This document shows positions 1,404-31,608 of a stretch of DNA of 41,127 bases, piece after piece. Both the position numbers and the translations under genes were made by a program. Source of the DNA: a virus; IMG/VR virus record IMGVR_UViG_3300040808_002390, positions 1 through 41,127 of that record, one strand, 5' to 3'. Positions within the stretch are counted from its first letter, which is position 1. The number at the start of each line of letters is the position of its first letter. The notes beneath the pieces are model-generated. The model did not search any database and was not told where the DNA came from. It was given only the letters and a program-made list of their open reading frames with translations.

Positions 1404-1744
1404 CAGTGATCTCCAAAGATCAGGTTGTACAGGCTCGCGTACACGACGCCCCATACGGCGTCCTCACTCGGTCCTGAGTATTCGTGAATCAGTGCGTGAG
1501 CGTATTCATGCACCAATACCTCGTCAAAGGCTTTCTCGTCCAGCGCGTTCGAGATCGTGATCACGAACGAGTCGGTGTCTTCCCTGTACTCGGTAGACCC
1601 TTCGGCTTCAGGAAGCTCCTTGATCTGAACTTCCAAGGGCCGGGCCAGCGGATGGCAATGCTGTAGAACCGCTAGCGTCGTCCAGACCCTCAGGTCGCGG
1701 CGACCGTGTTGAAGGTCTCGGTTCTCGTCTGGGCTGATCTCCAC
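1403..1744 (-). CDS. HEXXH zincin-type metalloprotease-like protein
   Basis: Carries a clear HEYAHAL motif (residues 79-83 from the GTG at 1744), the HEXXH zinc site of zincin metallopeptidases. About ten residues later comes an aromatic stretch, WGVVYASLYN, that resembles the helix after the zinc site in small phage and SprT-like metallopeptidases. The third zinc ligand is not certain. The start is doubtful: GTG at 1744 lies 55 bases inside the upstream esterase gene and has no good Shine-Dalgarno sequence, so the true protein may begin later at a rare start. It is coupled to the next gene by TGATG. Target unknown; processing of virion proteins or attack on host cell material are both possible. 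Confidence 0.62.
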   Translation of the reverse strand: MEISPDENRDLQHGRRDLRVWTTLAVLQHCHPLARPLEVQIKELPEAEGSTEYREDTDSFVITISNALDEKAFDEVLVHEYAHALIHEYSGPSEDAVWGVVYASLYNLIFGDH

Positions 1745-2577
1745 GCTTTGAACATTTTAGTCCCCAGGAGCATGGCCGAGCTGTCCGAGAAATGCGGATC
1801 GCTAGAGTTCCACGGGATGCCTTCCATCCAGGCCGTCGCACGCCCCGAGGTTTGCTTCCACTGGTCAGTTTGGGCTTGGCAGGTCTCTACGCGGCTCTCA
1901 GAGGTCGTAGGAGCCTCTTGGATGACCGAACGTGGTATCCGGGTCGCGACTTGCCTACCGCCACCAGAGGCCAGCACAGAGCCTTCTACGGCAGAGAACA
2001 CGCTAGCAAGGTTCGAGGACAGGTTCCCTGACTCGTCCGTAGTGTAGACCGTCGAGTTGTTCAAATTGTTTCCAAGAGACGCGAGGCACCCCAGGTAGAC
2101 GTGATCGGTCGTCACCTCGTCCGTTGCCAGTGCCTCAGTCAGGTACTTCGACTGGTAGCGGCCCATGATCCCGCCAGACAGCCCCGGATACCAAGAGATC
2201 GTGTTGTTGCCGCCGGGAGGCGTCTGAGTCACGTCAGTGGCCGGGATGGCCATGCAAATGACCCGAAGCTCCTCCAGACCCAAATAACGACGGATTGCCG
2301 ACGCCGTGTAATAGACCGGGAGCGGGCCGTTGTTCTGCCAGTTGGAGTCTGCGTAGCGCAACGAGTCCCAGCCGGGGGTGTGGCCCGTGTCGCTCAACCC
2401 TGCTCGCACATCTACCGTCTGGGCTTCGTTACCGACTCCCGCGTCGAACGTGTAACGGTTGTAGATGAAGACCCGATTGTCCCCGTTCGCGCCGAACGGG
2501 GGCGTCTGCGTGGCCGGGCCGTTGTACCCCGCTTGAAGACTGTCTCCGACGACAGCCAGGACAGCCTTAACGCCCAT
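1690..2577 (-). CDS. SGNH/GDSL-family esterase, probably tail-associated
   Basis: A 295-residue SGNH hydrolase. Block I is VVGDSLQAG with the nucleophile at Ser13, a GNN stretch at 169-171 fits block III, and the C-terminal D260-P-H262 pair gives the rest of the triad. The fold suggests removal of acetyl or other ester groups, and the overall layout resembles sialate O-acetylesterase-like proteins. It sits downstream of two tail-fibre genes, so the likely substrate is O-acetylated polysaccharide on the host surface, though this is inferred from position. There is no signal peptide, in line with a virion component. It is linked to the preceding gene by TGATG. Confidence 0.82.
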   Translation of the reverse strand: MGVKAVLAVVGDSLQAGYNGPATQTPPFGANGDNRVFIYNRYTFDAGVGNEAQTVDVRAGLSDTGHTPGWDSLRYADSNWQNNGPLPVYYTASAIRRYLGLEELRVICMAIPATDVTQTPPGGNNTISWYPGLSGGIMGRYQSKYLTEALATDEVTTDHVYLGCLASLGNNLNNSTVYTTDESGNLSSNLASVFSAVEGSVLASGGGRQVATRIPRSVIQEAPTTSESRVETCQAQTDQWKQTSGRATAWMEGIPWNSSDPHFSDSSAMLLGTKMFKAWRSAQTRTETFNTVAAT

Positions 2578-2975
2578 CAGTCGTTCAGGAAGTTGCGGAT
2601 GGCTTCCAGCCAGATGTTCGGGATCGCGACCAGCAGGTCCTTTTCGTCAGAGGTCAGAGTGTCGTCTTGATCGACCTCTGCGATGTAGGCCAGAAGTAGC
2701 GGCACCAGACCCTCAAGCTCGACAACCTGAAACTCAGCGTCAAGCTCGTCGGAGAACAGGTTGATGTAGTACTCCGCACGCGCAGCGAGGTCCGGGCGGT
2801 ATGCCTGGAGTTGCTCCAGAGTCTCAAGCATGGGCGGCTCCCACTGACCCACCGTGGTTGTGATCTTTGCAGGATCTGTCTCCACGGTACGGCAACCCGT
2901 GCAGCACGACGGAAAGACGAGAAGCAGCCCGAGGACAACGAGCGGCACGACAGTGGGAACGAGACGGTGCTTCAT
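2577..2975 (-). CDS. Small secreted or lipoprotein-like protein (spanin candidate)
   Basis: A 132-residue protein with a basic N-terminus, a hydrophobic run (residues 6-22) and then FPSCCTGC, where Cys24 or Cys25 could be a lipidation site. The lipobox is imperfect, so lipidation is only possible. The rest is acidic and helical (around 48-132). Start at 2975 forms a 4-base ATGA overlap with the preceding gene. Lipoproteins late in phage genomes can be outer-membrane spanins (Rz1 type), but Rz1 proteins are usually shorter and proline-rich, and no partner is clear. Alternatives are a superinfection-exclusion lipoprotein or a plain secreted protein. Confidence 0.6.
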   Translation of the reverse strand: MKHRLVPTVVPLVVLGLLLVFPSCCTGCRTVETDPAKITTTVGQWEPPMLETLEQLQAYRPDLAARAEYYINLFSDELDAEFQVVELEGLVPLLLAYIAEVDQDDTLTSDEKDLLVAIPNIWLEAIRNFLND

Positions 2976-3340
2976 ACCTTTGCGACTAGACGGATGGCGA
3001 GACGGACGATGAAAACAACTCGGTCAGCGAACAGCTTCTGGCTCTGACGAGCAATCGCGATCTGGGCAGACTCGGCATAGAGCTGAACAGCACGCGCGTA
3101 GTTCGTGAGGAAGGCGGTGTCACCCATCGCCTCTGCCTTCGCAACCAGCTCAAACTGGTCTTGCAGGAACCCCTTCAGTCGTTCTGGCGAGTTGCCCCAC
3201 TGAGGCTTCGCCGGAAGGTACTCCTTCAGTAGGTCCAGGGCTTCCTCAGCGACGACACCCCAGTCCAGCTCGGGCTCGGCTGCGGGCTCGGGCTCGGGCT
3301 CGAAGAAGAAAGATTCCTCAGGTTCGATTTCGTCGTTCAT
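2972..3340 (-). CDS. Hypothetical acidic/helical protein
   Basis: A 122-residue protein. The N-terminus is very acidic with an alternating Glu-Pro run (residues 15-24), followed by a helical middle, and ends in a basic amphipathic stretch (DRVVFIVRLAIRLVAKV) that might touch a membrane. Similar Glu-Pro linkers occur in the nuclease gene at 36949-38595. It is coupled to the lipoprotein-like gene by ATGA and follows the second fibre gene by 3 bases. Not recognised; a role in lysis is conceivable from its position and amphipathic tail but unsupported. Confidence 0.6.
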   Translation of the reverse strand: MNDEIEPEESFFFEPEPEPAAEPELDWGVVAEEALDLLKEYLPAKPQWGNSPERLKGFLQDQFELVAKAEAMGDTAFLTNYARAVQLYAESAQIAIARQSQKLFADRVVFIVRLAIRLVAKV

Positions 3341-3343
3341 AAA

Positions 3344-4243
3344 TCAGTGAAGCGCGATCCAGCTGGACCACACGTTGTTGTTGGAGGAGCGAACGTAGAC
3401 TGTCGGTTGGGCGCTCCCGGACTGAGCCACCGTGGCCCGCACAAAGTAGAAGTACCCCTCATCGAACCCAGTGCCACTACTGAGACGCACCTCTCCACCT
3501 CGGAAGACCTCCATGAGGTAGGCTCGGTTGTTGGTCGCAGACCCAGAAGTAATGGGGTATTCGTAGGTCGTAGCGGAGGTCGAGTTCAAAACGAAGGTGA
3601 TGAACGTAGCCGAGTCTCCACCATTGTCGCAGTAAGACTTGTAGTCCCAGTCGATGCCACGCTGGACCCCGGCCTGAACCTCGGTCCTTGTGGGGTTGCC
3701 GTCCACCGCCTGGGTCAGGAAGAAGTCCCCCGCAGCGGCTTCGACCGTTTGGAACTCGGGGAGCCCGGTAGCCGCCACGCCCAGGACTTGACCTTGCGTT
3801 CCCGCCGCCACCTGCACAACGGTGTCGGTCGTGTCGTCCCATGCGAACATGACCCCCGTGGAGGAAGGCTCGGGCAGCGCCGGGGAGAGGATGTCAACGT
3901 ACTCGCTGCCGTTGGCTTGGAGCACGCGGCCCGACGAGTAGCCGCTACCGCTGAGGTTGAACTGAAGCGCGTCTGTGAACTCCAGCGCCGTGCCACCCGA
4001 GTTGACCACGGCTTTTTGCCCGGCGGTGCCTAGGGATGCAGGAGTGTCGGTCAGTTGCGTGAAGGTAGTGACACCACTGCCCTCGCCTCCTCCGATCAGT
4101 CTTCCACCATCTCCAAGAAAGAAGAACAGCTCTGTAGTGCTGTCGGTGGGCACACCGACGACACCAGCAGGGAAGTCAAGACTTTCGTCGCCCGCGCCTG
4201 CTGCCAGTTGCGCCTTTGTGTACCCGTTCAGTCTCTTGAGCAT
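3344..4243 (-). CDS. Tail fibre protein
   Basis: A 299-residue fibre-like protein, rich in Gly, Ser and Thr. Residues around 60-92 carry a segment (FTQLTDTPASLGTAGQKAV, then VVNSGGTALEF) typical of phage fibre and appendage proteins. The C-terminal 110 residues end in Trp-containing beta strands (NNNVWSSWIALH), like the knob domains of pyocin and phage fibres. It follows the giant fibre gene by 17 bases and has a strong GGAGGT ribosome-binding site, so it is translated independently. The C-terminal knob would be the natural receptor-binding part. Category secure, receptor unknown. Confidence 0.78.
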   Translation of the reverse strand: MLKRLNGYTKAQLAAGAGDESLDFPAGVVGVPTDSTTELFFFLGDGGRLIGGGEGSGVTTFTQLTDTPASLGTAGQKAVVNSGGTALEFTDALQFNLSGSGYSSGRVLQANGSEYVDILSPALPEPSSTGVMFAWDDTTDTVVQVAAGTQGQVLGVAATGLPEFQTVEAAAGDFFLTQAVDGNPTRTEVQAGVQRGIDWDYKSYCDNGGDSATFITFVLNSTSATTYEYPITSGSATNNRAYLMEVFRGGEVRLSSGTGFDEGYFYFVRATVAQSGSAQPTVYVRSSNNNVWSSWIALH

Positions 4244-4260: not shown

Positions 4261-7200
4261 TTACTGTAGCCTCTGAGTGCCCGCACGATCAGCGGCCAGT
4301 TTGGTTTGTTGTGAAAGCTCCCCGAAGGACCCTGCGCCCTGGTGGTCAGCAATGAGCTTGTTCCATACCGCAGTTGCGATCTCTTCAGCCGAGGGGACCG
4401 CTTCAGGGATGTCCTGGACCAGCTTCCCGAACGTGCCGGGAATGTTGTGGGAGCCGTACATCACGTCCCACACGTCCGTGGACCGAGACCGAACACCCTC
4501 GAACGCCCCCGGATCGCACCCACCGCCGATGCGCTTGACGCCGTTGATGTCAAAGACAGGAACGTCCGCGTTGGCTGCGGGTCCGACGCCACCACCAAGG
4601 GCTGCGTTGTCATCAACGACGATGAGAGCGCCTGTAGCGGCCTCGTAGATCGCGAAGTGTCCTGGGCCGGGGTCCGTGTTCGTCGTGGCCGTGATCGGGT
4701 ACGGGGAGCCTTGGATTGCGGCGGGGAGGTCAGTGCCCCCGCCCGTGTTGGGCGAAAAGTTGTTTGAGCCCGTCACGGTGGCCGTGCCAGAGCCTGAGGA
4801 ACTGAAGGGCCTTGAAAAGGCCGTCCAGCAGTTCAGCACTTGCAAGGAGTTGGTGCGGCCTGTGTTCGTGTATAGAATGAACTGCCGCTGGTTTATGTCA
4901 CCCGCAAGATCCGGATGATAGATGTTGGTGCAGTTCCTGATGCGGAAGTGCGAGTCAGCGGAATCTGCGCTGATATTGAAGCTGCCTCGGGCTACGCAGT
5001 TCTCAACGATGTGCGGGTTCGCTGATGTTCCAGATCCGAAAGGAGAGAAGATGAAGACGCCTAGGATTGCACCGCTCGTGGATGACCCATCCCAAAGGCA
5101 GTTCTGAATCAGGTTGCCCACTGTTCCGGCTGTTTGGAACCTGAGTCCGGAGGGACCAGATGCTTGGAATTGAAGGTCGCGGAACGTGATGTAATCCTCA
5201 GACGCATAGACGCACGCCGTGGTCGTGCTTGTCAGAATTGGCCCCGAACCAAAGACGCCGCCATGCGGCACCGCAGCCCGATAGGTGACGTTACGCGTTG
5301 GGTCCTTTGTGAGGCCGTCAGACATGACCACCAACCCGCTGTAGGTTGCAGAGTCCACAACGAACTCAATCCGCTCGTTCTCGAACACAAGGTCCGCAGA
5401 CCCGCCGATGTTCTCAACGTCAGCTTCCGCTTCAATGAACGTCGCGTAGTCCCGCCCAACAGGCCCGATGGTCCTCGTCAGCACCGCAGTCGCCTGAGCC
5501 AGCGCAAACGCTCCGGGGTTCGTCGTCGTGCCTGACCGCGTGTCGCCAAGGATGTCCGTCGTCGGCACGTCCGCGTTCGCAGCAGGCCCGACGCCACCGT
5601 TGATCACGTCGTTATTGGGCGAGTCGAGGAGCGCCCCGTTCTTGCCGACGTACAGCGCGAAGTCGCCTGCGCCGGGGTCGTAGGCGGTGGAGGCGGTGAT
5701 CGGGTAGGGGGAGCCTTGGAGGGCGACGGGGAAGGGGCCACCGGAGCCGCCGAAGTTGTTAGAGCCCGTGATATTCCGGGCAGGATCCGTGTAGTTGCCT
5801 GCCCAGACTGTGGATTCGCCAAGGCTAAGGTGATTGACGACCTCAGCCTCCAGCGTGTTCGCCGTTGAGCCTCCGACGAAGAACGACCAGTTCCCATCAG
5901 CGACGGTGGTGCAGTTGACCAGCCGCGCATAAGTGTCGCCGCTATAGGTCGCCAACTGCCACGCACGTTGCGTAAACCCTACTTGCTGGCCGTAAACAAT
6001 ACAGTTTTCCCATGTAACGGGGTGCTGAGCTGTACCACCAGCATTTATGCCCCAGGTAGTATTACCTGTTGGGTTGGCTGCAACGCAGCCACGGTACACG
6101 ACACCCACCGCCGAGTTGAAGATCGAGTGGTCGCCGCCTGACTGGGCGTAAAGCACCAGCCCGTCTAGCGTGGTGAAGTCGTCCATCACTCCCGTGGCAG
6201 CATCTATCCTAGGGACGCCGCTTAGACTGCCGCCATGTTCCGCCCCTTCGGTAGGTTTATAGGTGACGTTGCGGGTGGGGTCAGTGGTCAGACTTGACTG
6301 AAAGTAGACCGCGCTCGCTGTCGAATCGTACGTCGCTGCGTCGGCCTCGAAGACGAACGCTCGGTTCGTGAAGGTGATGTCCTCAGACGGCAGCGAAGCC
6401 TCGGCCAGAGTGAACGTCGCGAAGTCTCTTCCGACAGGTCCGATGGTCTGAGTCGTGATCGTCGGCGCAACGAACCCGTCCGCCTCGAACGCCCCAGGGT
6501 TACAGCTCGCCCCGCTCCTCGCCACGCCGTTGATGTCCGTGGTGGGCACGCTTGCGTTTGATCCAGGGCCGACGCCCTGCTGCCACACGTCGTTGCCCGG
6601 CTTGTCGGCAAGGGCTCCGGTGGCCCCCATGTAGACCGCGTAGTCCCCTGCGCCCAGCGGGGTGGAGAAGCTCGTGGTTGCGGTGATCGGGTAGGGGGAG
6701 CCCTGGACTGCGACAGGGAGCGCGCCTGCCGAGATTGAAAAGTTGTTGCTGCCGCTGATCGTCGGGCTTGCGACTGCTTGATAAGCCGCGCCGCTTGTCA
6801 CGAGCCCGAGGTGGTTGATTAGCGTCAGGTTCGCGGCGCTGCCATAGGCGCGAATCGCATAGCTGCCGGAGGAGACGACCGCCGTGCTGTTGACGAGATG
6901 AACGTGGGCTGCTGTGCTCGGCGCGAAGATATAGAACCCGTTACCGTTGGTGGCGTGCGCGACGCAGTTGAGACAGCGCACGGGGTTGAGGGCCGTGCCA
7001 TTCTGGAAGATGGCGACGTGCGCGTTCGTGTTTGCCAGAAGTAGACCGTCCACGGTGACGCCATCCGCGCCGATCGCAATGGCGTAGGAGGCGGAACTCT
7101 TGACGACGATGCCCTCGAAGTGAATGAAGTCGTCGTAGAGCCCTGCCGCGTTTCCACTGGAGCCACTCACAATCACGCCTGCGCTGAGGCTCCCCCCGTG

Positions 7201-10200
7201 CTCGCTGCCGCTTGCTGGACGATAGGTGACGTTCCGAGTCGCGTCAGTGGTGAGCGAGCTGCTGAATGACACGCTCTCCGAGTACGTCGCCGCGTCAGCC
7301 TCAAAGACAAACGCCCGGTTCGTGAAGGTGATGTCCTCCGCAGGCAGCGAAGCCTCGGCCAGAGTGAACGTCGCGAAGTCTCGGCCCACAGGACCGATGG
7401 TCTGAGTCGTGATCGTCGGAGCCACGAACCCATCGGCCTCAAACGCGCCAGGGTTGCAGCTCGCCCCGCTCCTCGCCACGCCGTTGATGTCGGTCGTCGG
7501 AACGTCGGAGTTGGTTCCAGGCCCGACGCCCTGCTGCCACACGTCGTTCCCGGTGACGTTCGCGAGGGCTCCAGTGGCCCCCATGTAGACCGCGTAGTCC
7601 CCAGCGCCCAACGGGGTGCTGAAGCTCGTGGTCGCGGTGATCGGGTAGGGGGAGCCTTTACCGGGGAACTGCCAAGACGCGCTTGACTGCACACCGAAGT
7701 TCCCCGCACTACCCGTCGTGGTTACGGTTAGTGTGCTTGTGCTTTGGTTGAAGTCGTTAGCGACACCGACGTTCAGGCAGTTGACGACCTTGATGTTGAG
7801 CGTGCCACTTGTGTCAAAGACGCCAAAGGCTTGCGTGCCACCACCTGCGGCTGCGCTTTTGCTCAGGAACGTACAGTTGCTGAAGACAAGGTTGTCCGCG
7901 ATGGTCGCCCCAGACCCTGGACTGCCTAGGGGGACCGCGTGAATGCCGACGCGCAGAAACACGCAACTGGACACGGTGACCGGGTTTGACGCTGTGCCAA
8001 GAAAGCCGTTGCCTGAGTTGCGGTAGCACTGCACCCCATACCCGACATTGCTGTCGCTGCACGCGATGATGCAATTGGTCAGGCGCTGCCCCTGGATGTT
8101 CATGCCTCCAAAGCCGACAACATTGTGTGCGTAAAACGAACTGGCATTGGCTATGACCAAGCCCACAAATGCAGTGTTGTCGTCGCGCACGTTGACCGCC
8201 GTATACGCTGTGCTGACGATACGCACGCCTGCGCTTTCAGATCCACCGTGCTCGCTGCCAGCAGCGGGCTTGTAGGTCACGTTGCGCGTCGGGTCCGTCG
8301 TGAGCGAGCTGATGAAGTTGACTTGCGCGGACTCGTTGTAGACTGCCGCATCAGCCTCGAACACGAAAGCTCGGTTCGTGAACGTGATGTCCTCGGACGG
8401 CAGCGAAGCCTCAGCCAGAGTGAACGTCGCGAAGTCTCTTCCGACAGGTCCGATGGTCTGAGTCGTGACCGTGGGCGCAACGAACCCATCGGCCTCAAAC
8501 GCTCCGGGGTTACAGGTCGCCCCGCTTCGCGCCACGCCGTTGATGTCCGTGGTCGGAACGTCGCTATTGGTTCCAGGGCCGACGCCCTGCTGCCACACGT
8601 CGTTCCCCGGCTTGTCGGCAAGGGCTCCGGTAGCCCCCATGTAGACAGCAAAGTCACCAGCGCCCAACGGCGTGGAGAAGCTCGTGGTGGCGGTGATCGG
8701 GTAGGGGGAGCCCTGGAGGGCTACAGGCCACGGGGCGCCGCTGCCGCCGAAGTTGTTGCTCCCTGTGATCGTCGCAGTTCCGCTGTTGTCACGGAATGTG
8801 CTTCCTGATGTGAGCGCGACGTTGTTAGTGAACTCAAGCGTTGCGGACGGGTTGTAGTTGATATAGCACCACTCAAGCGCAGAGTGGACAACGGTGCAGT
8901 TTGTGACCCGCGCGTGATATGTGCCGGATCCGAAGAACCCAATGCCTCGCGATCCCTGGACGAACACCACGCAGTTCTGGATTACCACAGGGAAGTCCGC
9001 TGTAGCACCCGCGTTGTCGTTGCGGATTGCCATTGTTGCGGAGTTCAAGTCATCAACAATTAGGCTATCCAAGATCACGCCTGGAGCACTGCCTAGCAGT
9101 GACACGCCGTAGTTACCCGTAAACGTACACACGAAGCCTTCTAGCCGCAGGAAGTCGCACGGCGCGCGAAACGCATAACTGGTTCCGCCAGCTACGATGA
9201 CTCCCGCAGTTCGATCTCCTCCATGCTCGCTACCGTCTTGGGGCCGCAGCGTGAGGTTTCGCGTCGGGTCAAAATCAAACGACGTGCTGTCAACATTGAC
9301 GTTCCCGGCGTAGTTACCAGCAACAGCTTCAAAGGCAACCGCTCGGTTCAACAGCGTCAGGTCTGAGCCCCCTGCCACATTTGCAAGGTCTGCGAGGGCG
9401 AGACTAAACGTGGTGTAGTCGCCAGCGCCGCTTGCGTCGATGGTCCTCGTGATGACCGTCGGCGCAACGAACCCATCGGCCTCGAACGCGCCGGGGTTGC
9501 AGCTCGCCCCGCTTCGCGCCACGCCGTTGATGTCCGTGGTCGGGACATCGGAGTTGGTTCCAGGCCCCACGCCCTGTTGCCACACGTCGTTCCCCGGCTT
9601 GTCGGCAAGGGCTCCAGTGGCCCCCATGTAGACCGCGTAGTCGCCTGCGCCGAGGGGCGTGCTGAAGCTCGTGGTGGCGGTGATCGGGTAGGGGGAGCCC
9701 TTCAGCGCCGCAGGAAACACATGAGTCGCGCTCGTCTGGGGACCGAAGTTGTTAGAGCCGAGCACGGTGCTGGTTCCGCCGCCGCCTTGATCGCGCCAGT
9801 CTTCCGCCGCCGACAAGATCAGGTTATTCGTAATGGTGCAGGTGGTGTCGGTCGTGTGGCTAAAGATGTCAAAGGCTCTGCCGCTGCATTTGATTGTGCA
9901 GTTCGTGACCGTCCATGCCTTGTCGCTCGCGCCGTAGTTCCACAGCCTGAAGCCAGCAGCGTTGCTCCCGTCCAGCACGCAGTTACTGACTTGAACAGGG
10001 AAGGATTGCGTGTCTGAGATGTTGACCTGAGCCGACAAAAACATGACCCCAGTACCCGCGTGCCGAATGATGCAGTCGCTAAAGGTGACGCCTTCTATGT
10101 TGTTTTGCGTTTCGGCTGGACGCCCGGTGGAACCGCTGTCCGTCCAATCAAACTCCAAGCCTTTGACAGCGGTGAACGGGTCGTTGGCCGCGATGCACCA

Positions 10201-11463
10201 ACTGCTTAGAGATAGGTTGCCAAATTGGATCCGCACCCCTTGGCCCGGCACGCCACCGTGCTCACTCCCCGCCGCAGGCTTGTAAGTCACCTGACGGGTC
10301 GCATCCGTTACCAGCGAGCTGCTAATCGTGACGTACTCCGAGTACGTCGCCGCGTCCGCCTCGAACACAAACGCTCGGTTCGTGAAGGTAATGTCCTCGG
10401 AAGGCAGCGAAGCCTCAGCCAACGTGAACGTGGCGTAGTCCCGGCCTACGGGACCGATGGTCTGGGTCGTCACCGTCGGAGCCACGAACCCGTCGGCCTC
10501 GAACGCGCCGGGGTTCGCCGTCGCCCCGCTCCTCGCCACGCCGTTGATGTCCGTGGTCGGAACGTCGCTGTTGGTTCCCGGTCCCACGCCCTGTTGCCAC
10601 ACGTCGTTCCCCGGCTTGTCCGCAAGGGCTCCGGTGGCCCCCATGTAGACCGCGAAGTCCCCGGAGCCGAGAGGCGTGGAGAAGCTCGTGGTCGCGGTGA
10701 TCGGGTAGGGGGAGCCCTGGAGGGCGGCGGGGAATGGGTTCGAGCCACCGCCGAAATTGTTGGAGCCTGTAGCGTTGACGGTCCCAGCGCCCAACTCGAT
10801 GTATGTGACGGATGCCGTGGTGAGCACGAGAACATTGTCGAGCGTTGCGTTCACATCTTGCGCCGCGTCGGCGGTAAGGCTAACGCCTCGGCCAGCCGAT
10901 CCGACGATTGTGCTGTTCGTCACGCGGATGTTCTGCGCCGTCCCCGAACTGGAATTAGCCGCAATGCCGTACACGACTCCGCTCACGGTCACCGCGACAC
11001 AGTTCTCGATGACGTTTGGAGAAGAGACTGTGCCGCCAGGGTTGCCGTTGAAACCTGGGTAGGCTTCGCCACCGCTCACACAGGACACGGCTCGCGCTCC
11101 TGCGGCTGCGCTTAGAGATATCTGCTTGGCGGATAGCCCTTCGAGCTTGGTGAAGCTGTCCACCACGTTCACATAGGCACCGCTGATATACGGCCCAGAG
11201 CCGAGCACGCCACCATGCTCACTTCCCGCCGCAGGCTTGTACGTCACCTGCCTCGTCGCGTCAGTCGTGAGCGAACTGCTCCATGTGACGATCTCGTTGT
11301 ACGTCCCCGCATCAGCCTCGAAGACGATGGCCCCGTCGTTCGCCACCAGATCCGTCCCGCCGAACTCCGCTGTGGCGATGCTCTCCACCGCAGCTTCCGC
11401 CAGCGTGAACGTCGTGTAGTCGCGCCCGGTCGGGCCGATGGTCTTCGTGACGACGGTGACCAC
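4261..11463 (-). CDS. Giant modular tail fibre with seven tandem beta-helix modules
   Basis: A 2400-residue protein starting at GTG 11463, supported by AGGAGG 8 bases upstream. It is built of seven modules of 318-352 residues plus a 78-residue C-terminal tail. Each module opens with a head (TIGPVGRDYATFTLAEA...), continues with a variable core rich in NCTI, NCVV and NNL steps typical of right-handed parallel beta-helices, and closes with a cap (GSPYPITATTSFST ... DINGVARSGA ... NPGAFEAD). The closing R-G-x-NPGAFE resembles the end of pectin-lyase-like beta-helix proteins. The C-terminal tail (SAEEIATAVWNKLIAD) is helical and unrelated. It lies directly after the tail-tip genes, so it is probably a long side or tip fibre, possibly with polysaccharide-binding or depolymerase modules. 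No catalytic residues could be assigned. Confidence 0.88.
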   Translation of the reverse strand: MVTVVTKTIGPTGRDYTTFTLAEAAVESIATAEFGGTDLVANDGAIVFEADAGTYNEIVTWSSSLTTDATRQVTYKPAAGSEHGGVLGSGPYISGAYVNVVDSFTKLEGLSAKQISLSAAAGARAVSCVSGGEAYPGFNGNPGGTVSSPNVIENCVAVTVSGVVYGIAANSSSGTAQNIRVTNSTIVGSAGRGVSLTADAAQDVNATLDNVLVLTTASVTYIELGAGTVNATGSNNFGGGSNPFPAALQGSPYPITATTSFSTPLGSGDFAVYMGATGALADKPGNDVWQQGVGPGTNSDVPTTDINGVARSGATANPGAFEADGFVAPTVTTQTIGPVGRDYATFTLAEASLPSEDITFTNRAFVFEADAATYSEYVTISSSLVTDATRQVTYKPAAGSEHGGVPGQGVRIQFGNLSLSSWCIAANDPFTAVKGLEFDWTDSGSTGRPAETQNNIEGVTFSDCIIRHAGTGVMFLSAQVNISDTQSFPVQVSNCVLDGSNAAGFRLWNYGASDKAWTVTNCTIKCSGRAFDIFSHTTDTTCTITNNLILSAAEDWRDQGGGGTSTVLGSNNFGPQTSATHVFPAALKGSPYPITATTSFSTPLGAGDYAVYMGATGALADKPGNDVWQQGVGPGTNSDVPTTDINGVARSGASCNPGAFEADGFVAPTVITRTIDASGAGDYTTFSLALADLANVAGGSDLTLLNRAVAFEAVAGNYAGNVNVDSTSFDFDPTRNLTLRPQDGSEHGGDRTAGVIVAGGTSYAFRAPCDFLRLEGFVCTFTGNYGVSLLGSAPGVILDSLIVDDLNSATMAIRNDNAGATADFPVVIQNCVVFVQGSRGIGFFGSGTYHARVTNCTVVHSALEWCYINYNPSATLEFTNNVALTSGSTFRDNSGTATITGSNNFGGSGAPWPVALQGSPYPITATTSFSTPLGAGDFAVYMGATGALADKPGNDVWQQGVGPGTNSDVPTTDINGVARSGATCNPGAFEADGFVAPTVTTQTIGPVGRDFATFTLAEASLPSEDITFTNRAFVFEADAAVYNESAQVNFISSLTTDPTRNVTYKPAAGSEHGGSESAGVRIVSTAYTAVNVRDDNTAFVGLVIANASSFYAHNVVGFGGMNIQGQRLTNCIIACSDSNVGYGVQCYRNSGNGFLGTASNPVTVSSCVFLRVGIHAVPLGSPGSGATIADNLVFSNCTFLSKSAAAGGGTQAFGVFDTSGTLNIKVVNCLNVGVANDFNQSTSTLTVTTTGSAGNFGVQSSASWQFPGKGSPYPITATTSFSTPLGAGDYAVYMGATGALANVTGNDVWQQGVGPGTNSDVPTTDINGVARSGASCNPGAFEADGFVAPTITTQTIGPVGRDFATFTLAEASLPAEDITFTNRAFVFEADAATYSESVSFSSSLTTDATRNVTYRPASGSEHGGSLSAGVIVSGSSGNAAGLYDDFIHFEGIVVKSSASYAIAIGADGVTVDGLLLANTNAHVAIFQNGTALNPVRCLNCVAHATNGNGFYIFAPSTAAHVHLVNSTAVVSSGSYAIRAYGSAANLTLINHLGLVTSGAAYQAVASPTISGSNNFSISAGALPVAVQGSPYPITATTSFSTPLGAGDYAVYMGATGALADKPGNDVWQQGVGPGSNASVPTTDINGVARSGASCNPGAFEADGFVAPTITTQTIGPVGRDFATFTLAEASLPSEDITFTNRAFVFEADAATYDSTASAVYFQSSLTTDPTRNVTYKPTEGAEHGGSLSGVPRIDAATGVMDDFTTLDGLVLYAQSGGDHSIFNSAVGVVYRGCVAANPTGNTTWGINAGGTAQHPVTWENCIVYGQQVGFTQRAWQLATYSGDTYARLVNCTTVADGNWSFFVGGSTANTLEAEVVNHLSLGESTVWAGNYTDPARNITGSNNFGGSGGPFPVALQGSPYPITASTAYDPGAGDFALYVGKNGALLDSPNNDVINGGVGPAANADVPTTDILGDTRSGTTTNPGAFALAQATAVLTRTIGPVGRDYATFIEAEADVENIGGSADLVFENERIEFVVDSATYSGLVVMSDGLTKDPTRNVTYRAAVPHGGVFGSGPILTSTTTACVYASEDYITFRDLQFQASGPSGLRFQTAGTVGNLIQNCLWDGSSTSGAILGVFIFSPFGSGTSANPHIVENCVARGSFNISADSADSHFRIRNCTNIYHPDLAGDINQRQFILYTNTGRTNSLQVLNCWTAFSRPFSSSGSGTATVTGSNNFSPNTGGGTDLPAAIQGSPYPITATTNTDPGPGHFAIYEAATGALIVVDDNAALGGGVGPAANADVPVFDINGVKRIGGGCDPGAFEGVRSRSTDVWDVMYGSHNIPGTFGKLVQDIPEAVPSAEEIATAVWNKLIADHQGAGSFGELSQQTKLAADRAGTQRLQ
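4498..5484 (-). repeat. Beta-helix module 7 (329 residues)
   Basis: Both head (EADVENIGGSADLVFENERI) and cap (NTDPGPGHFAIYEAATGAL) are divergent. Core steps include IQNCLWDGSS, VENCVARGSF and IRNCTNIYH. Confidence 0.8.
5485..6459 (-). repeat. Beta-helix module 6 (325 residues)
   Basis: Standard head but divergent cap (AYDPGAGDFALYVGKNGALL, then ILGDTRSGTTTNPGAF). Core steps include WENCIVYGQQ and LVNCTTVADG. Confidence 0.8.
6460..7413 (-). repeat. Beta-helix module 5 (318 residues, the shortest)
   Basis: Near-standard head (SLPAEDITF) and cap (GSNASVPTTD). Core is Ala/Val rich, with CLNCVAHATNG and LVNSTAVVSS steps. Confidence 0.8.
7414..8469 (-). repeat. Beta-helix module 4 (352 residues, the longest)
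   Basis: Standard head; standard cap with a small change (ANVTGNDVW in place of ADKPGNDVW). The core has extra steps such as LTNCIIACSD and FSNCTFLSKS. Confidence 0.8.
8470..9456 (-). repeat. Beta-helix module 3 (329 residues)
   Basis: Divergent head (TIDASGAGDYTTFSLALADL) but a standard cap. Core steps include IQNCVVFVQG and VTNCTVVHSA. Confidence 0.8.
9457..10473 (-). repeat. Beta-helix module 2 (339 residues)
   Basis: Standard head (SLPSEDITFTNRAFVFEADA) and standard cap. Core steps include VSNCVLDGSN, VTNCTIKCSG and ITNNLILSA. Confidence 0.8.
10474..11463 (-). repeat. Beta-helix module 1 (330 residues)
   Basis: N-terminal module with its own head variant (insert VESIATAEFGGTDLVANDG) and a standard cap. 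The core contains VTNSTIVGS and VIENCVAVTV steps. Confidence 0.8.
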
Positions 11464-28556: not shown

Positions 28557-29957
28557 ATGGAAGATCGCACATCTAGCAATAACCCTTTCGAAGACGGCAC
28601 TGCCGCTTTTGGAGGTAGCTCAACTCCTTGGGTAGCTGGCGACTTGGTCTCTAGCAAAGAGCCTCTTCGCAAGACTCTCTACAAGGTTCGCGACCTTCCG
28701 GGGCAAGAAGCCAGCGGGCGCAAGACCCAAGAGTCTGGCAAGGTTCTGCATCCGTTCAACATGGAGCTTGCTGACTCCATGATCGAGGTCAGTCCGTACC
28801 ACGGGTCGTGTCAAGCGACTCTGGTCAGCGCGACTGTCGGGTGCGGGCTGGGCGTCATCGACGAGGAAGCTACGGCGCAAGCCAAGGCCGGACTGGCCCA
28901 GAGCAGCACCGCCGACGCGGCAGGCAAGCTGCCCGTCATTGACCACGAGCGCACCGAGGAGCTGTACGACACGCTCGACTCGATGTGCGAGCACGACTTC
29001 GACCACCTGATGGCCCAGGTTGCGGGCAACTACTGGGGCGTGGGCAACGCCTACATGGAGTGTGGGCGAGACTCTGAGGATCAAGTGTCCTCTCTGTACT
29101 GGTTGCCTGCCCCGGACGTGTACCGCACGCACTACCTGGACAAGCGCCGGGACCGCTTCTACTTCACGCTCTTCAACGGCTACAACGACGGTGAAGTGCT
29201 CTTTGCCCGCTGGCGCAAGATGCAGGAACTGCGAGCTGCCGACGAAGTCAGCCTTGAGCGCCAAGAGATCCTGAACGAGGTCGTGGACTTCACTCGACCC
29301 ACCACGCGCTGGGAAGGCTACGGAGCGCCCCACTGGCTTGCTGCCGTGCCGTACATGGACGTGGACGTGCGTGCTCTTCAGCGCGTCAGTGACTACATGT
29401 TTAACGGGGGCATGCCGCAGAACATGCTGTTCCTGGGCGGCATGCCGATCAACGGAGAGCAGCTGCTGAAGATGCGCGAGGTGATGTCCGGCGCATCTGG
29501 CTCGCGCCAAGGTCAGAGTGCGTTGTTCACCATGCCCAGCTCTTCCAAGGACCGTGCTTGGGTCGAGCACATCAAGGTGGGCGACTCAGTTGAGGGCACG
29601 GGCTTCCAGGATATGCACGGCACGATCAACCTTTCGGTTGCTTCAGCCAATCAAGTCCCCCCTGTTCTGGCAGGCATCACGACCCCTGGCAAGATGGGGG
29701 CGGCGAACGAGATGGCTCAGGCCATCATGACGATGCAGAGCAACGTCATCTCGCCTGTTCAGAACTACCTTGCCAAGCGGCTGAACCGCACGCTGTTCTC
29801 CACCATCGGCGGGATTCGTGGCTTTGCTGGAACCAAGGTCCGCTTCAAGACGTGGCACGAGGCGATGGACATGGCGGCTCTCAACACCGTGGCGCGTCAG
29901 CGCGAACAAGTGGCGGCTGCTCCCGACAGGGATCCCGACGAGGGTCTGAGGCGGTAG
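28557..29957 (+). CDS. Portal protein
   Basis: A 466-residue portal protein. The diagnostic stretch is WEGYGAPHWLAAVPYMDVDV, followed after a helix by YMFNGGMPQNMLF, the pattern of PBSX/P2-type portals (YGxPxWLSAL ... FFxNGGxP). Further support is NYWGVGNAYMECGRD with WLPAPDVYRTHY in the clip and stem region, and IMTMQSNVISPVQNYLAKRL near the end. It forms the dodecameric DNA channel of the head and docks the terminase. Unusually it lies on the plus strand, opposite to the protease, decoration and capsid genes, and far from the terminase gene. Confidence 0.88.
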   Translation: MEDRTSSNNPFEDGTAAFGGSSTPWVAGDLVSSKEPLRKTLYKVRDLPGQEASGRKTQESGKVLHPFNMELADSMIEVSPYHGSCQATLVSATVGCGLGVIDEEATAQAKAGLAQSSTADAAGKLPVIDHERTEELYDTLDSMCEHDFDHLMAQVAGNYWGVGNAYMECGRDSEDQVSSLYWLPAPDVYRTHYLDKRRDRFYFTLFNGYNDGEVLFARWRKMQELRAADEVSLERQEILNEVVDFTRPTTRWEGYGAPHWLAAVPYMDVDVRALQRVSDYMFNGGMPQNMLFLGGMPINGEQLLKMREVMSGASGSRQGQSALFTMPSSSKDRAWVEHIKVGDSVEGTGFQDMHGTINLSVASANQVPPVLAGITTPGKMGAANEMAQAIMTMQSNVISPVQNYLAKRLNRTLFSTIGGIRGFAGTKVRFKTWHEAMDMAALNTVARQREQVAAAPDRDPDEGLRR

Positions 29958-30512
29958 ATGCCGCGCAAGTTTGTAGATCGTCTGGAACCGGGCCTTCGGC
30001 AGGCCACGGACCAGATAGCGGACTTGTACGTCGCGAACCTCGCTGCTGAAGCGGGCATCTACTCGACCACCCTGGCAGAGAGCTTCTTCAGGACACCTCT
30101 TCAGCCAACTCCAAAGGGCTTCTCGTTCCGAGTCGAGACGCCGTTCTTCTGGGCGAACATCATCGACCGAGGCCGAAAGGCGGTCACGATTGCACCTCCC
30201 CGCAAGCTGGCGTTCTTTGCGAACCCACTGGAGGACGACCCAAGGCTTCGCGGAGGGTATCACCGTACCTACGAAGAAGCCTCAAACTCCAGGCTGGATA
30301 TGCCGCCGGAGGAGTTCAAGCGAGCGGTTAAAGAAGGCAGGCTGATCCTGACCAACTACGCCGCTCCTCTGACCCCGACCAACTTTGTGATCAAGGCCAA
30401 GGGCAGGTTCAAACGAGACGCTGCGGAGATCCTGGGCCGAACAGCCAGGACCACCGCCCGCAGCTACCTCAAAGAGATCACGAAGGACATCCGCATCAAC
30501 ATCACCCTCTAA
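29958..30512 (+). CDS. Possible neck / head-tail joining protein
   Basis: A 184-residue basic protein whose ATG directly follows the portal stop (TAGATG). A middle segment (FFWANIIDRGRKAVTIAPPR, then KLAFF) and a helical basic end (FKRDAAEILGRTARTTARSY) recall HK97 gp10-like neck proteins, which have an aromatic-IExG strand and a long terminal helix. The likeness is weak. A minor head protein of the portal-associated type is an alternative. Coupling to the portal argues for a role in the same complex. Followed by the PAS gene with a TAATG overlap. Confidence 0.55.
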   Translation: MPRKFVDRLEPGLRQATDQIADLYVANLAAEAGIYSTTLAESFFRTPLQPTPKGFSFRVETPFFWANIIDRGRKAVTIAPPRKLAFFANPLEDDPRLRGGYHRTYEEASNSRLDMPPEEFKRAVKEGRLILTNYAAPLTPTNFVIKAKGRFKRDAAEILGRTARTTARSYLKEITKDIRINITL

Positions 30513-31057
30513 TGAAGCTCGAAGCAGTAGAGAGGCGAGTGCTGGAGAAGTTCTGGCGGCTTGCGGAGGTCGGCTGTTGTCTTGTGTCCGAAGACGGCAA
30601 GTTTATGGCCGTCAACCAGAAGCTGTGTGAGCTGCTGGAGTACTCGCAGGTCGAGCTTGAGGCTCTGACCTACCAAGATATCACGCACCCTTCAGACGTG
30701 ATGGCGACCGTGGCCATGAAGGATCAAGTGGCGCGAGGGGAGCTGAGTCACTTCCGCATGACGAAGACCTACCTCAAGAAGAGCGGCTACCCGGTTCAGA
30801 TCGACTTGGTCGTGTGGCCCATCAAAAAGGAGGACGGCAGCTTTGAGTTCTTTTTGAACCAGATCGTCCCGAAGGTGAACGTCCACTCAGGCAAGCGACG
30901 GGCTACGGACTGCCAAGACGTTCGTGTGGACAGCTCGATCGTGATCACGAGCTTCTTGCGAGACAACAAGAAGCTGCTGGGGGCGCTGACTGCCTTGCTG
31001 GGGGCCGTGGCAGCTGCTCTAAGCGCCCTGGCGCACAAGCTGATGGCTGGGGTCTAG
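30512..31057 (+). CDS. PAS-domain protein with C-terminal membrane helix
   Basis: A 181-residue protein. Residues about 14-121 are a well-formed PAS domain: G-C-C-L-V-S-E-DG-K entry strand, AVNQKLCELLEYSQVELEAL, the YQDITHPSDV turn typical of S-box PAS domains, a second half with KTYLKKSGYPVQIDLVVWPI and the closing FEFFLNQIVPK. A linker follows and then a hydrophobic helix at 153-175 (KLLGALTALLGAVAAALSAL) with a short basic end. There is no kinase, GGDEF, HTH or other output domain. PAS domains sense ligands or redox state, or form dimers. It ends the portal transcription unit (TAATG with the gene before). Possible roles are a sensing holin-like protein or interference with host PAS signalling; both are inference. 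Confidence 0.85.
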   Translation: MKLEAVERRVLEKFWRLAEVGCCLVSEDGKFMAVNQKLCELLEYSQVELEALTYQDITHPSDVMATVAMKDQVARGELSHFRMTKTYLKKSGYPVQIDLVVWPIKKEDGSFEFFLNQIVPKVNVHSGKRRATDCQDVRVDSSIVITSFLRDNKKLLGALTALLGAVAAALSALAHKLMAGV

Positions 31058-31608
31058 ACGCCCTGCCGAGGGCGTCCACGGGCGTGCCAAAGCGCCATGC
31101 CGACAGTGTCGATTGCGTCGTGGTACTGCCGCTTCGTGATTCGCTTGTGACCTACCAGCACGGAGTCGAAGTGCTCTTTGCTCAGGTCGGCGTCAGGCAG
31201 GTAGTACTGGATCAGCCGCTCGCGGCGGATGTCTTTCTTGGTAGTGGACCAACCACCCTGGCCTGTGGGTGCCCACTGGATTTCCCTGCCCAACGCTGCC
31301 GCGAGAGCCCCGGTGACCATAGCTAGGTCTCGGATGTCCTCCTTGCGGACGTTCCGTGCTTTGAAGTGCTGAGTCTCGACCAGCACAACCTCGAAGCGGT
31401 CGTAGGGCTCCTGGGGAAATAAGGAGGCAATATCACAGCTGGTCAGCATCTTGACTGTGTCTGTGACTGCGTCCAGCCCCTTTCTCAGAGGCTTCTTGCG
31501 TTCTAGAAGCCCTACCTGCTCGACTCCCTGGAGCGCACCGTCGTCGGACCACGACGTGGATGTCCACACAAAGTGGTGCAGCCCTGGGTCAAACGCGACT
31601 ATCCGCAC
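31054..31608 (-). CDS. RuvC-like nuclease (Holliday junction resolvase type)
   Basis: A 184-residue protein of the RNase H/RuvC fold. Catalytic acids are visible in order: D7 (IVAFDPGLHH), E78 (VVLVETQHF), and D164 with D167 (YHDAIDTVGMALWHA). The length is near that of RuvC (about 170). The expected role is to cut branched recombination or replication intermediates before packaging. It is the last gene of the replication operon, and its TAG stop shares the palindrome CTAG with the stop of the PAS gene. A transposase-like or regulatory RNase H fold is unlikely given size and motif order. Confidence 0.82.
   Translation of the reverse strand: MRIVAFDPGLHHFVWTSTSWSDDGALQGVEQVGLLERKKPLRKGLDAVTDTVKMLTSCDIASLFPQEPYDRFEVVLVETQHFKARNVRKEDIRDLAMVTGALAAALGREIQWAPTGQGGWSTTKKDIRRERLIQYYLPDADLSKEHFDSVLVGHKRITKRQYHDAIDTVGMALWHARGRPRQGV

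Follow-up and report, generated by a model that had tools for sequence, protein, structure and literature searches.

Gene organisation at the PAS locus

The window, i.e. the whole stretch of DNA analysed here (IMG/VR record, 41,127 bases), belongs to a tailed phage and encodes a major head protein, a head maturation protease, a portal protein, tail proteins, a DNA polymerase and a helicase. An operon on the + strand starts with the gene of the portal protein (28557..29957), which matched PF04860 with E=2.4e-7, below the Pfam cut-off, and the PHROG portal family with E=6.5e-6. The second gene encodes a putative neck-like protein (29958..30512, +); no family match was found for it in Pfam, PHROGs or NCBIfam, and a 37% identical ORF lies at the same place in the sister phage L008. 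The third gene (30512..31057, +) runs in exact frame from ATG to TAG and encodes a protein of 181 amino acids with a PAS domain and a C-terminal hydrophobic helix, named PAS-TM in the following. One base is common to its ATG and the stop codon of the preceding ORF (TAATG), and its stop codon shares 4 bases with a convergent ORF (31054..31608, - strand) that looks RuvC-like by eye (FDPGLHH motif) and gave no match in Pfam. This is the operon with virion genes that was seen in a preliminary description of the locus. Two other near-identical contigs encode an identical PAS-TM protein, with a single, synonymous nucleotide change. Short direct repeats, translated as KRQLLAAS and CRDSPL units, are present in L069 (519-716) and L070 (3489-3818) near the ends of a 53.8-kb near-identical contig and are possible assembly-end or tandem-repeat features.

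The portal, neck-like and PAS-TM genes (28557-31057, +) are opposite in strand to the genes of the head maturation protease, the major head protein and the tail (-). Such a split of the morphogenesis module is unusual; the split between portal and protease is present in L008, too. L008 is related to the window phage with identities of 60% for the portal, 37% for the neck and 61% for the polymerase protein. In L008 the neck and RuvC-like ORFs directly abut, which makes this junction the empty site of the PAS-TM gene, and a PAS match was not found anywhere in the 20-kb record of L008. On this sequence comparison, PAS-TM is an accessory unit that was gained or lost as a whole, since L008 has the same gene order without exactly that gene.

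Neither an endolysin nor a classical holin was recognised in the 41-kb window. Apart from large structural proteins, the only ORFs of the window with a convincing hydrophobic helix were PAS-TM and a lipoprotein-like ORF (2577-2975). This scarcity of other membrane proteins is compatible with a function in lysis but a weak argument for it, because the genome may be incomplete. A tail-fibre-like ORF of 2400 amino acids (4261-11463, -) is followed by small ORFs (1690-4243, -), among them the lipoprotein-like one, and this region is the likely, though unproven, place of the lysis genes of the window phage.

PAS-TM consists of a single PAS domain and a C-terminal hydrophobic helix

The PAS domain was identified by sequence profiles as well as by fold. 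PF00989 matched residues 18-111 (E=1.2e-6; 28.9 bits vs a cut-off of 22.6), the sensory box model TIGR00229 of NCBIfam gave 41.2 bits vs a cut-off of 22.9, and the PAS part of the diguanylate cyclase model NF007298 (DgcE) matched residues 19-119 with E=8e-22. An AF2 model, built on an alignment of 40 rows, had a mean pLDDT of 88 and comprised an N-terminal helix (residues 3-17; 30518..30562, +) leading into the PAS fold, the PAS domain itself (residues 21-120; 30572..30871, +), a linker of low confidence (residues 121-141; 30872..30934, +; pLDDT 52-67) and a C-terminal helix (residues 153-179; 30968..31048, +; pLDDT 94). The PAS core (pLDDT 95-98) contains a five-stranded sheet (strands 21-25, 30-34, 81-88, 94-105 and 111-120), with the helices on one side of it. 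With a limit of E<=0.001, a Foldseek search with the model gave matches in the hundreds; those at the top were all PAS structures, with TMt values of up to 0.88. The top match in the PDB was the PAS domain of NifL (2gj3; E=7e-8, TMt 0.87, identity 11%). The PAS domain of NifL binds FAD. The window protein is a PAS domain protein of the S-box type with a YQDITHPSD motif; the near-canonical PAS domain of the preliminary description was thus found both in the profiles and in the predicted structure, which has the PAS fold. A LOV-type flavin photosensor was rejected, because the E-alpha stretch, which carries an NCRFLQ-type motif in these proteins, reads YQDITHPSD here and lacks the photoactive Cys.

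The hydrophobic core of the C-terminal helix comprises residues 155-173 (LLGALTALLGAVAAALSAL), directly preceded by FLRDNKK and followed by 8 residues. Its Kyte-Doolittle hydropathy is 2.16, compared to <=0.74 for any 19-mer in the PAS part, and when the tail was shuffled 500 times, a value at least this high was reached 12 times. The C-terminal hydrophobic helix described before is corroborated by these values. A kinase, GGDEF or other output domain was searched for in Pfam and NCBIfam, and only the PAS domain gave a convincing match, in line with the earlier statement that the domain stands alone. Nor is the gene a fragment of a multi-domain PAS kinase or cyclase, since the ORF has a start and a stop codon of its own and is conserved in this complete form. 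Cellular S-box PAS domains (TIGR00229/PF00989; NF007298) have the same fold, length and FQDITHPDDL-type motif but reside in multi-domain kinases and cyclases, whereas the phage PAS domain occurs alone with a C-terminal membrane helix.

A family of PAS-TM proteins in phages

A tblastn search with the window protein in 50,697 phage records gave no match at E<=0.01, and with five different family members no PAS protein was found in the same records; weak matches in MT835478 and in Synechococcus phage S-WAM1 were inspected and are not PAS proteins. Scans with single sequences (the window protein, P0001, and the portal protein) and with portal/polymerase pair alignments retrieved only near-copies and one sister phage. 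Because of this outcome, profiles of PAS alignments were required, and 2.9 million viral contigs were scanned, initially with P0001 aligned with cellular PAS domains and then with the phage proteins themselves. These scans revealed 25 distinct viral PAS proteins. L046, a bacterial GGDEF/EAL protein on a viral contig, was left out.

In 23 of the 25 viral proteins a linker connects the PAS domain with a single hydrophobic helix at the C-terminus, the total length being 164-245 amino acids, and the same design is present in at least 22 distinct phages besides the window phage. A loss of the hydrophobic C-terminal helix among relatives, which would have spoken against the preliminary description, was thus seen in only two of the 25 proteins, and the description stands in this respect. 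The relatives are only 24-32% identical to the window protein over the full length, and the invariant core of the subfamily (N35, ITHP at 57-60, K85 and Y87) is kept at this distance. The hydrophobic stretch often has [RK][DN][NY]W directly before it, and 1-47 residues follow its core across the family. For the divergent member L066 the AF2 model also consists of a PAS fold and a C-terminal helix, the helix being less confident. In several members the helix is only marginally hydrophobic, with estimated dG values of about 0 to 3, and for this reason its insertion into the membrane is not certain. The largest contig with a member is of jumbo-phage size (L185, 255 kb) and encodes a PAS-TM protein of 245 amino acids at 4459-5196.

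The two proteins without a helix are those of L179 and L047. In L047, and in the same way in L048, an ORF for a soluble PAS protein (5845-6369) overlaps an ORF for a coiled coil with a C-terminal TM helix (6329-6589). The latter matched XhlA with E=0.015, below the cut-off. The pair, which is located between portal and head genes, looks like a PAS-TM protein split in two.

PAS-like proteins are also found in the viral structure library, where Foldseek detected about 20 at E<=1e-3; phage proteins make up only a part of these. The model of the window protein matched 'PAS domain' proteins of uncultured Caudovirales in BFVD, such as A0A6J5KZZ3 (169 amino acids), with E=1e-7 in an alignment of 177 columns that takes in the C-terminal part; these UniProt/BFVD entries are similar in length and fold and are annotated automatically only. 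The rarity in phages assumed in the preliminary description is thus borne out by the empty tblastn search and has to be qualified in view of the viral structures: PAS-TM is rare in phages but not unique. In the open-access literature on PAS domains with holins or endolysins, or encoded by phages, no description of such a family, membrane helix or linkage to lysis was found, and within what could be searched the family is previously undescribed. The comparison of the predicted proteins shows the window gene to be a member of a set of short, phage-specific proteins, encoded mostly in late regions, each with a linker that joins its only PAS domain to a single hydrophobic helix at the C-terminus.

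The cellular counterparts are built differently. Among the 80 best matches from 84,980 bacterial and archaeal genomes, no short PAS-helix protein was found; all 80 are parts of longer sensors, the shortest open frame having 279 amino acids and being cut by the end of the contig. An Aeromonas plasmid protein whose match extends beyond the PAS domain (residues 3-153) was rejected as a relative, as it is a large multi-domain sensor. On the cellular side, the closest PAS domains are those found in diguanylate cyclases and kinases. In unrooted trees of this short domain, with cellular rows that had been picked for their resemblance to the phage proteins, the viral domains formed one side of a branch, with a support of 98/95 for 13 viral and 40 cellular rows and of 100/98 for 25 viral and 28 cellular rows (in the latter the row of L171 was cut wrongly and is half filled). 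Judged by these trees, the viral PAS domains are a phage-specific lineage apart from the cellular ones compared.

Neighbourhoods of the family members

An earlier proposal was to look for the same architecture beside portal genes of other phages. The architecture recurs in the 23 viral proteins described above, but the neighbours vary, many of them being lysis, tail, baseplate or terminase genes. In 6 of 23 members the same cassette encodes, downstream of PAS-TM, a lysis enzyme or, instead of it, DUF5675 (8 of 23 counting weak cases). In L044 the order is coiled-coil/TM protein, PAS-TM, an overlapping Amidase_2 endolysin (E=7e-17), a holin-like protein, an Rz-like protein and a lipoprotein. 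In L066 the PAS-TM gene follows a tail fibre gene and overlaps the gene of an M15 endolysin (Peptidase_M15_3, E=2.8e-14; PHROG endolysin, 9e-17), next to which a small, holin-like TM protein is encoded. PAS-TM of L165 is followed by a small ORF, a holin-like TM protein and, as the third gene downstream, a phage lysozyme (E=7e-28). Farther from PAS-TM, but still within 2.5 kb downstream, L057 has an endolysin gene of the M15 type (E=2e-23; PHROG endolysin, 1.5e-38) as well as one for a TM protein. DUF5675 follows PAS-TM directly in L045 (6482-6928, E=6e-26), succeeded by a holin-like protein and an Rz-like protein with an embedded Rz1-like lipoprotein, and in L063 (5519-5959, E=2e-20), succeeded by a TM protein; the match of the Rz-like ORF of L045 is weak (E=0.02). 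In L059 and L043 the neighbours are only weakly holin-like or spanin-like.

To our knowledge, the Pfam family DUF5675 has no established lytic function. It takes the position of the endolysin right after PAS-TM in two unrelated phages, L045 and L063, once before Rz/Rz1-like genes, and is a candidate lysis enzyme family.

Assuming about 70 genes per phage, 0.3 of the 23 members would be expected directly upstream of an established endolysin and 2 were observed (P about 0.04); directly upstream of an endolysin or DUF5675, 4 of the 23 were observed (P about 4e-4). The excess is suggestive, not decisive. Most of these lysis cassettes contain separate holin candidates. The remaining members are mostly found near tail, baseplate or terminase (packaging) genes, and L062 is in a non-structural region. 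In the T4-like relatives L052, L181 and L167 PAS-TM adjoins baseplate/tail genes. In two of these, L052 (2728-3779) and L181 (420-1554), the gene is located directly before a baseplate gene that looks gp25-like by eye, and the PAS-TM protein extends further at its C-terminus.

Comparison with known phage proteins

Class III holins (T4 T, T5-like) have one TM helix with N-in/C-out topology (PMC9636201). PAS-TM would resemble them in its predicted single TM helix, which may be oriented N-in/C-out, and in a soluble domain by which triggering could be gated, but the class III holins carry a large periplasmic C-terminal domain where PAS-TM has an N-terminal PAS domain, predicted to be cytoplasmic, and there is no sequence relation. 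Lacking the periplasmic domain, PAS-TM falls outside the definition of a class III holin (PMC9636201). In mycobacteriophages, the timing of lysis is adjusted by additional holin-like proteins with one TM helix, such as LysF1b (PMC13056207). LysF1b resembles PAS-TM in being the second protein, with a single TM helix, of a cassette in which a two-TM holin-like protein is encoded as well; it differs by an N-terminal TM helix with N-out/C-in topology, and no PAS domain is reported (PMC13056207). A regulatory role of PAS-TM would therefore have a precedent, without homology. XhlA-type proteins (PF10779) share the arrangement of a soluble, dimerising N-terminal part and one C-terminal TM helix, with a coiled coil in place of the PAS domain; homology is not established. 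The vibriophage VP882 encodes VqmA, a quorum sensor composed of PAS and HTH domains (PMC8284805), which also ties phage development to a small molecule by means of a phage-encoded PAS domain. VqmA, however, acts in the cytoplasm as a transcription factor; its output is DNA binding, and it has no membrane helix. A sensor of the VqmA type was rejected for PAS-TM, since only PAS was matched and the C-terminus is a hydrophobic helix instead of an HTH.

A possible role in lysis timing

From the neighbourhoods and the conserved architecture we infer a role of the PAS-TM family in lysis timing. We propose, tentatively and at somewhat less than an even chance, that PAS-TM is a membrane-anchored sensor for the timing of lysis and acts most probably as a partner of the holin or as an antiholin-like regulator. 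The helix would serve as an anchor in the inner membrane of the host with the PAS domain in the cytoplasm (N-in/C-out), a topology predicted because positive residues directly precede the helix and a signal sequence is lacking. The PAS domain would dimerise and bind a small ligand or cofactor or respond to the redox or energy state, and its signal would alter the packing of the membrane helices. Expressed late, together with virion and lysis proteins, PAS-TM may then set the time of holin triggering or add to the membrane lesion. In the window phage the gene appears to be translationally coupled to the portal and neck-like genes, so that the protein is probably made together with morphogenetic proteins. 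Since most of the lysis cassettes encode a holin candidate of their own, a regulator or partner of the holin is more likely than the sole holin. A link to lysis timing by a sensing, holin-like protein had been suggested from the window alone; the relatives in lysis cassettes favour the link, whereas the holin-like function fits less well with the separate holin candidates elsewhere, and against both stands the position of the window gene behind portal and neck, with no recognised lysis gene adjoining.

Other functions have to be weighed against a lysis-timing sensor. The PAS domain could be a mere dimerising handle that senses nothing and pairs two helices into a holin-like lesion or an anchor, lysis then following a fixed clock set by accumulation. 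PAS domains commonly dimerise, and the marginally hydrophobic, Ala/Gly-rich helices of the family are suited to helix packing, but the invariant core exceeds what a handle would seem to need, even if these residues may be structural; we consider this explanation unlikely. The coupling to portal and neck in the window and the baseplate/tail neighbours in the T4-like phages would agree with a role in the virion or in its assembly, such as that of a membrane-seated factor for assembly or ejection made together with portal and neck. Such a function is improbable in view of L008, which does without PAS-TM in the same operon, of the neighbours varying between phages, and of the PHROGs, in which no convincing match to a virion family was found.

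Equally improbable is an interference with host signalling, in which the anchored PAS domain would form heterodimers with PAS kinases or diguanylate cyclases of the host and block them late in infection. The nearest cellular relatives are indeed PAS domains of such enzymes, but the viral domains form one lineage apart from them instead of repeated captures from each host, and positions in late regions and lysis cassettes would be odd for a signalling decoy. The pairing with host PAS kinases raised in the preliminary description is left without support by this separation of viral and cellular domains. An inner-membrane protein of superinfection exclusion or immunity, whose activity is tuned by the PAS domain to the state of the cell, would be small, accessory and membrane-anchored, as is predicted for PAS-TM; since no exclusion genes were seen among the neighbours and most relatives are in the late region, we rate it as very improbable.

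A lysis-timing sensor would also have a more general meaning. Only few cases are known in which phages read the metabolic state of the host to choose the moment of lysis, namely lysis inhibition of the T4/N4 type and, for prophage induction, VP882. With its recurrence beside endolysin, holin and spanin genes, PAS-TM is a concrete gene family for probing host-state-dependent lysis, and if it is a lysis sensor, it would be a sensor whose effector is reduced to a membrane helix. The broader view, that a widespread, phage-specific class of membrane PAS proteins couples a chemical, redox or energy signal of the cytoplasm directly to holin triggering, is rather doubtful at present; if true, the moment of lysis in such phages would depend on the sensed state of the cell and not on a fixed clock or superinfection alone.

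PAS-like proteins in the lysis regions of Cellulophaga phages

The Foldseek matches in BFVD also led to PAS-like proteins of the Cellulophaga phages phi18:3 (172 amino acids) and phi19:1 (240 amino acids), which, inferred from phage name and length, correspond to gp090 and gp108. In phi18:3, gp090 (L160; NC_021794, 39102-39620) has an N-terminal TM helix followed by a PAS-like fold and is encoded two genes before the annotated endolysin gp092. In phi19:1, gp108 (L161; NC_021799, 54202-54924), again a TM helix followed by a PAS-like part, follows three TM ORFs and precedes the lysozyme gp113 by about 1.5 kb. The order of TM helix and PAS domain is opposite to that in the PAS-TM family. The PAS-like fold of both proteins is predicted from the BFVD match alone, and sequence profiles did not detect a PAS domain in them. 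These lysis-region proteins are possibly analogous to PAS-TM and give an independent hint of a link between PAS domains and lysis. Both phages infect Cellulophaga baltica and have cultured hosts.
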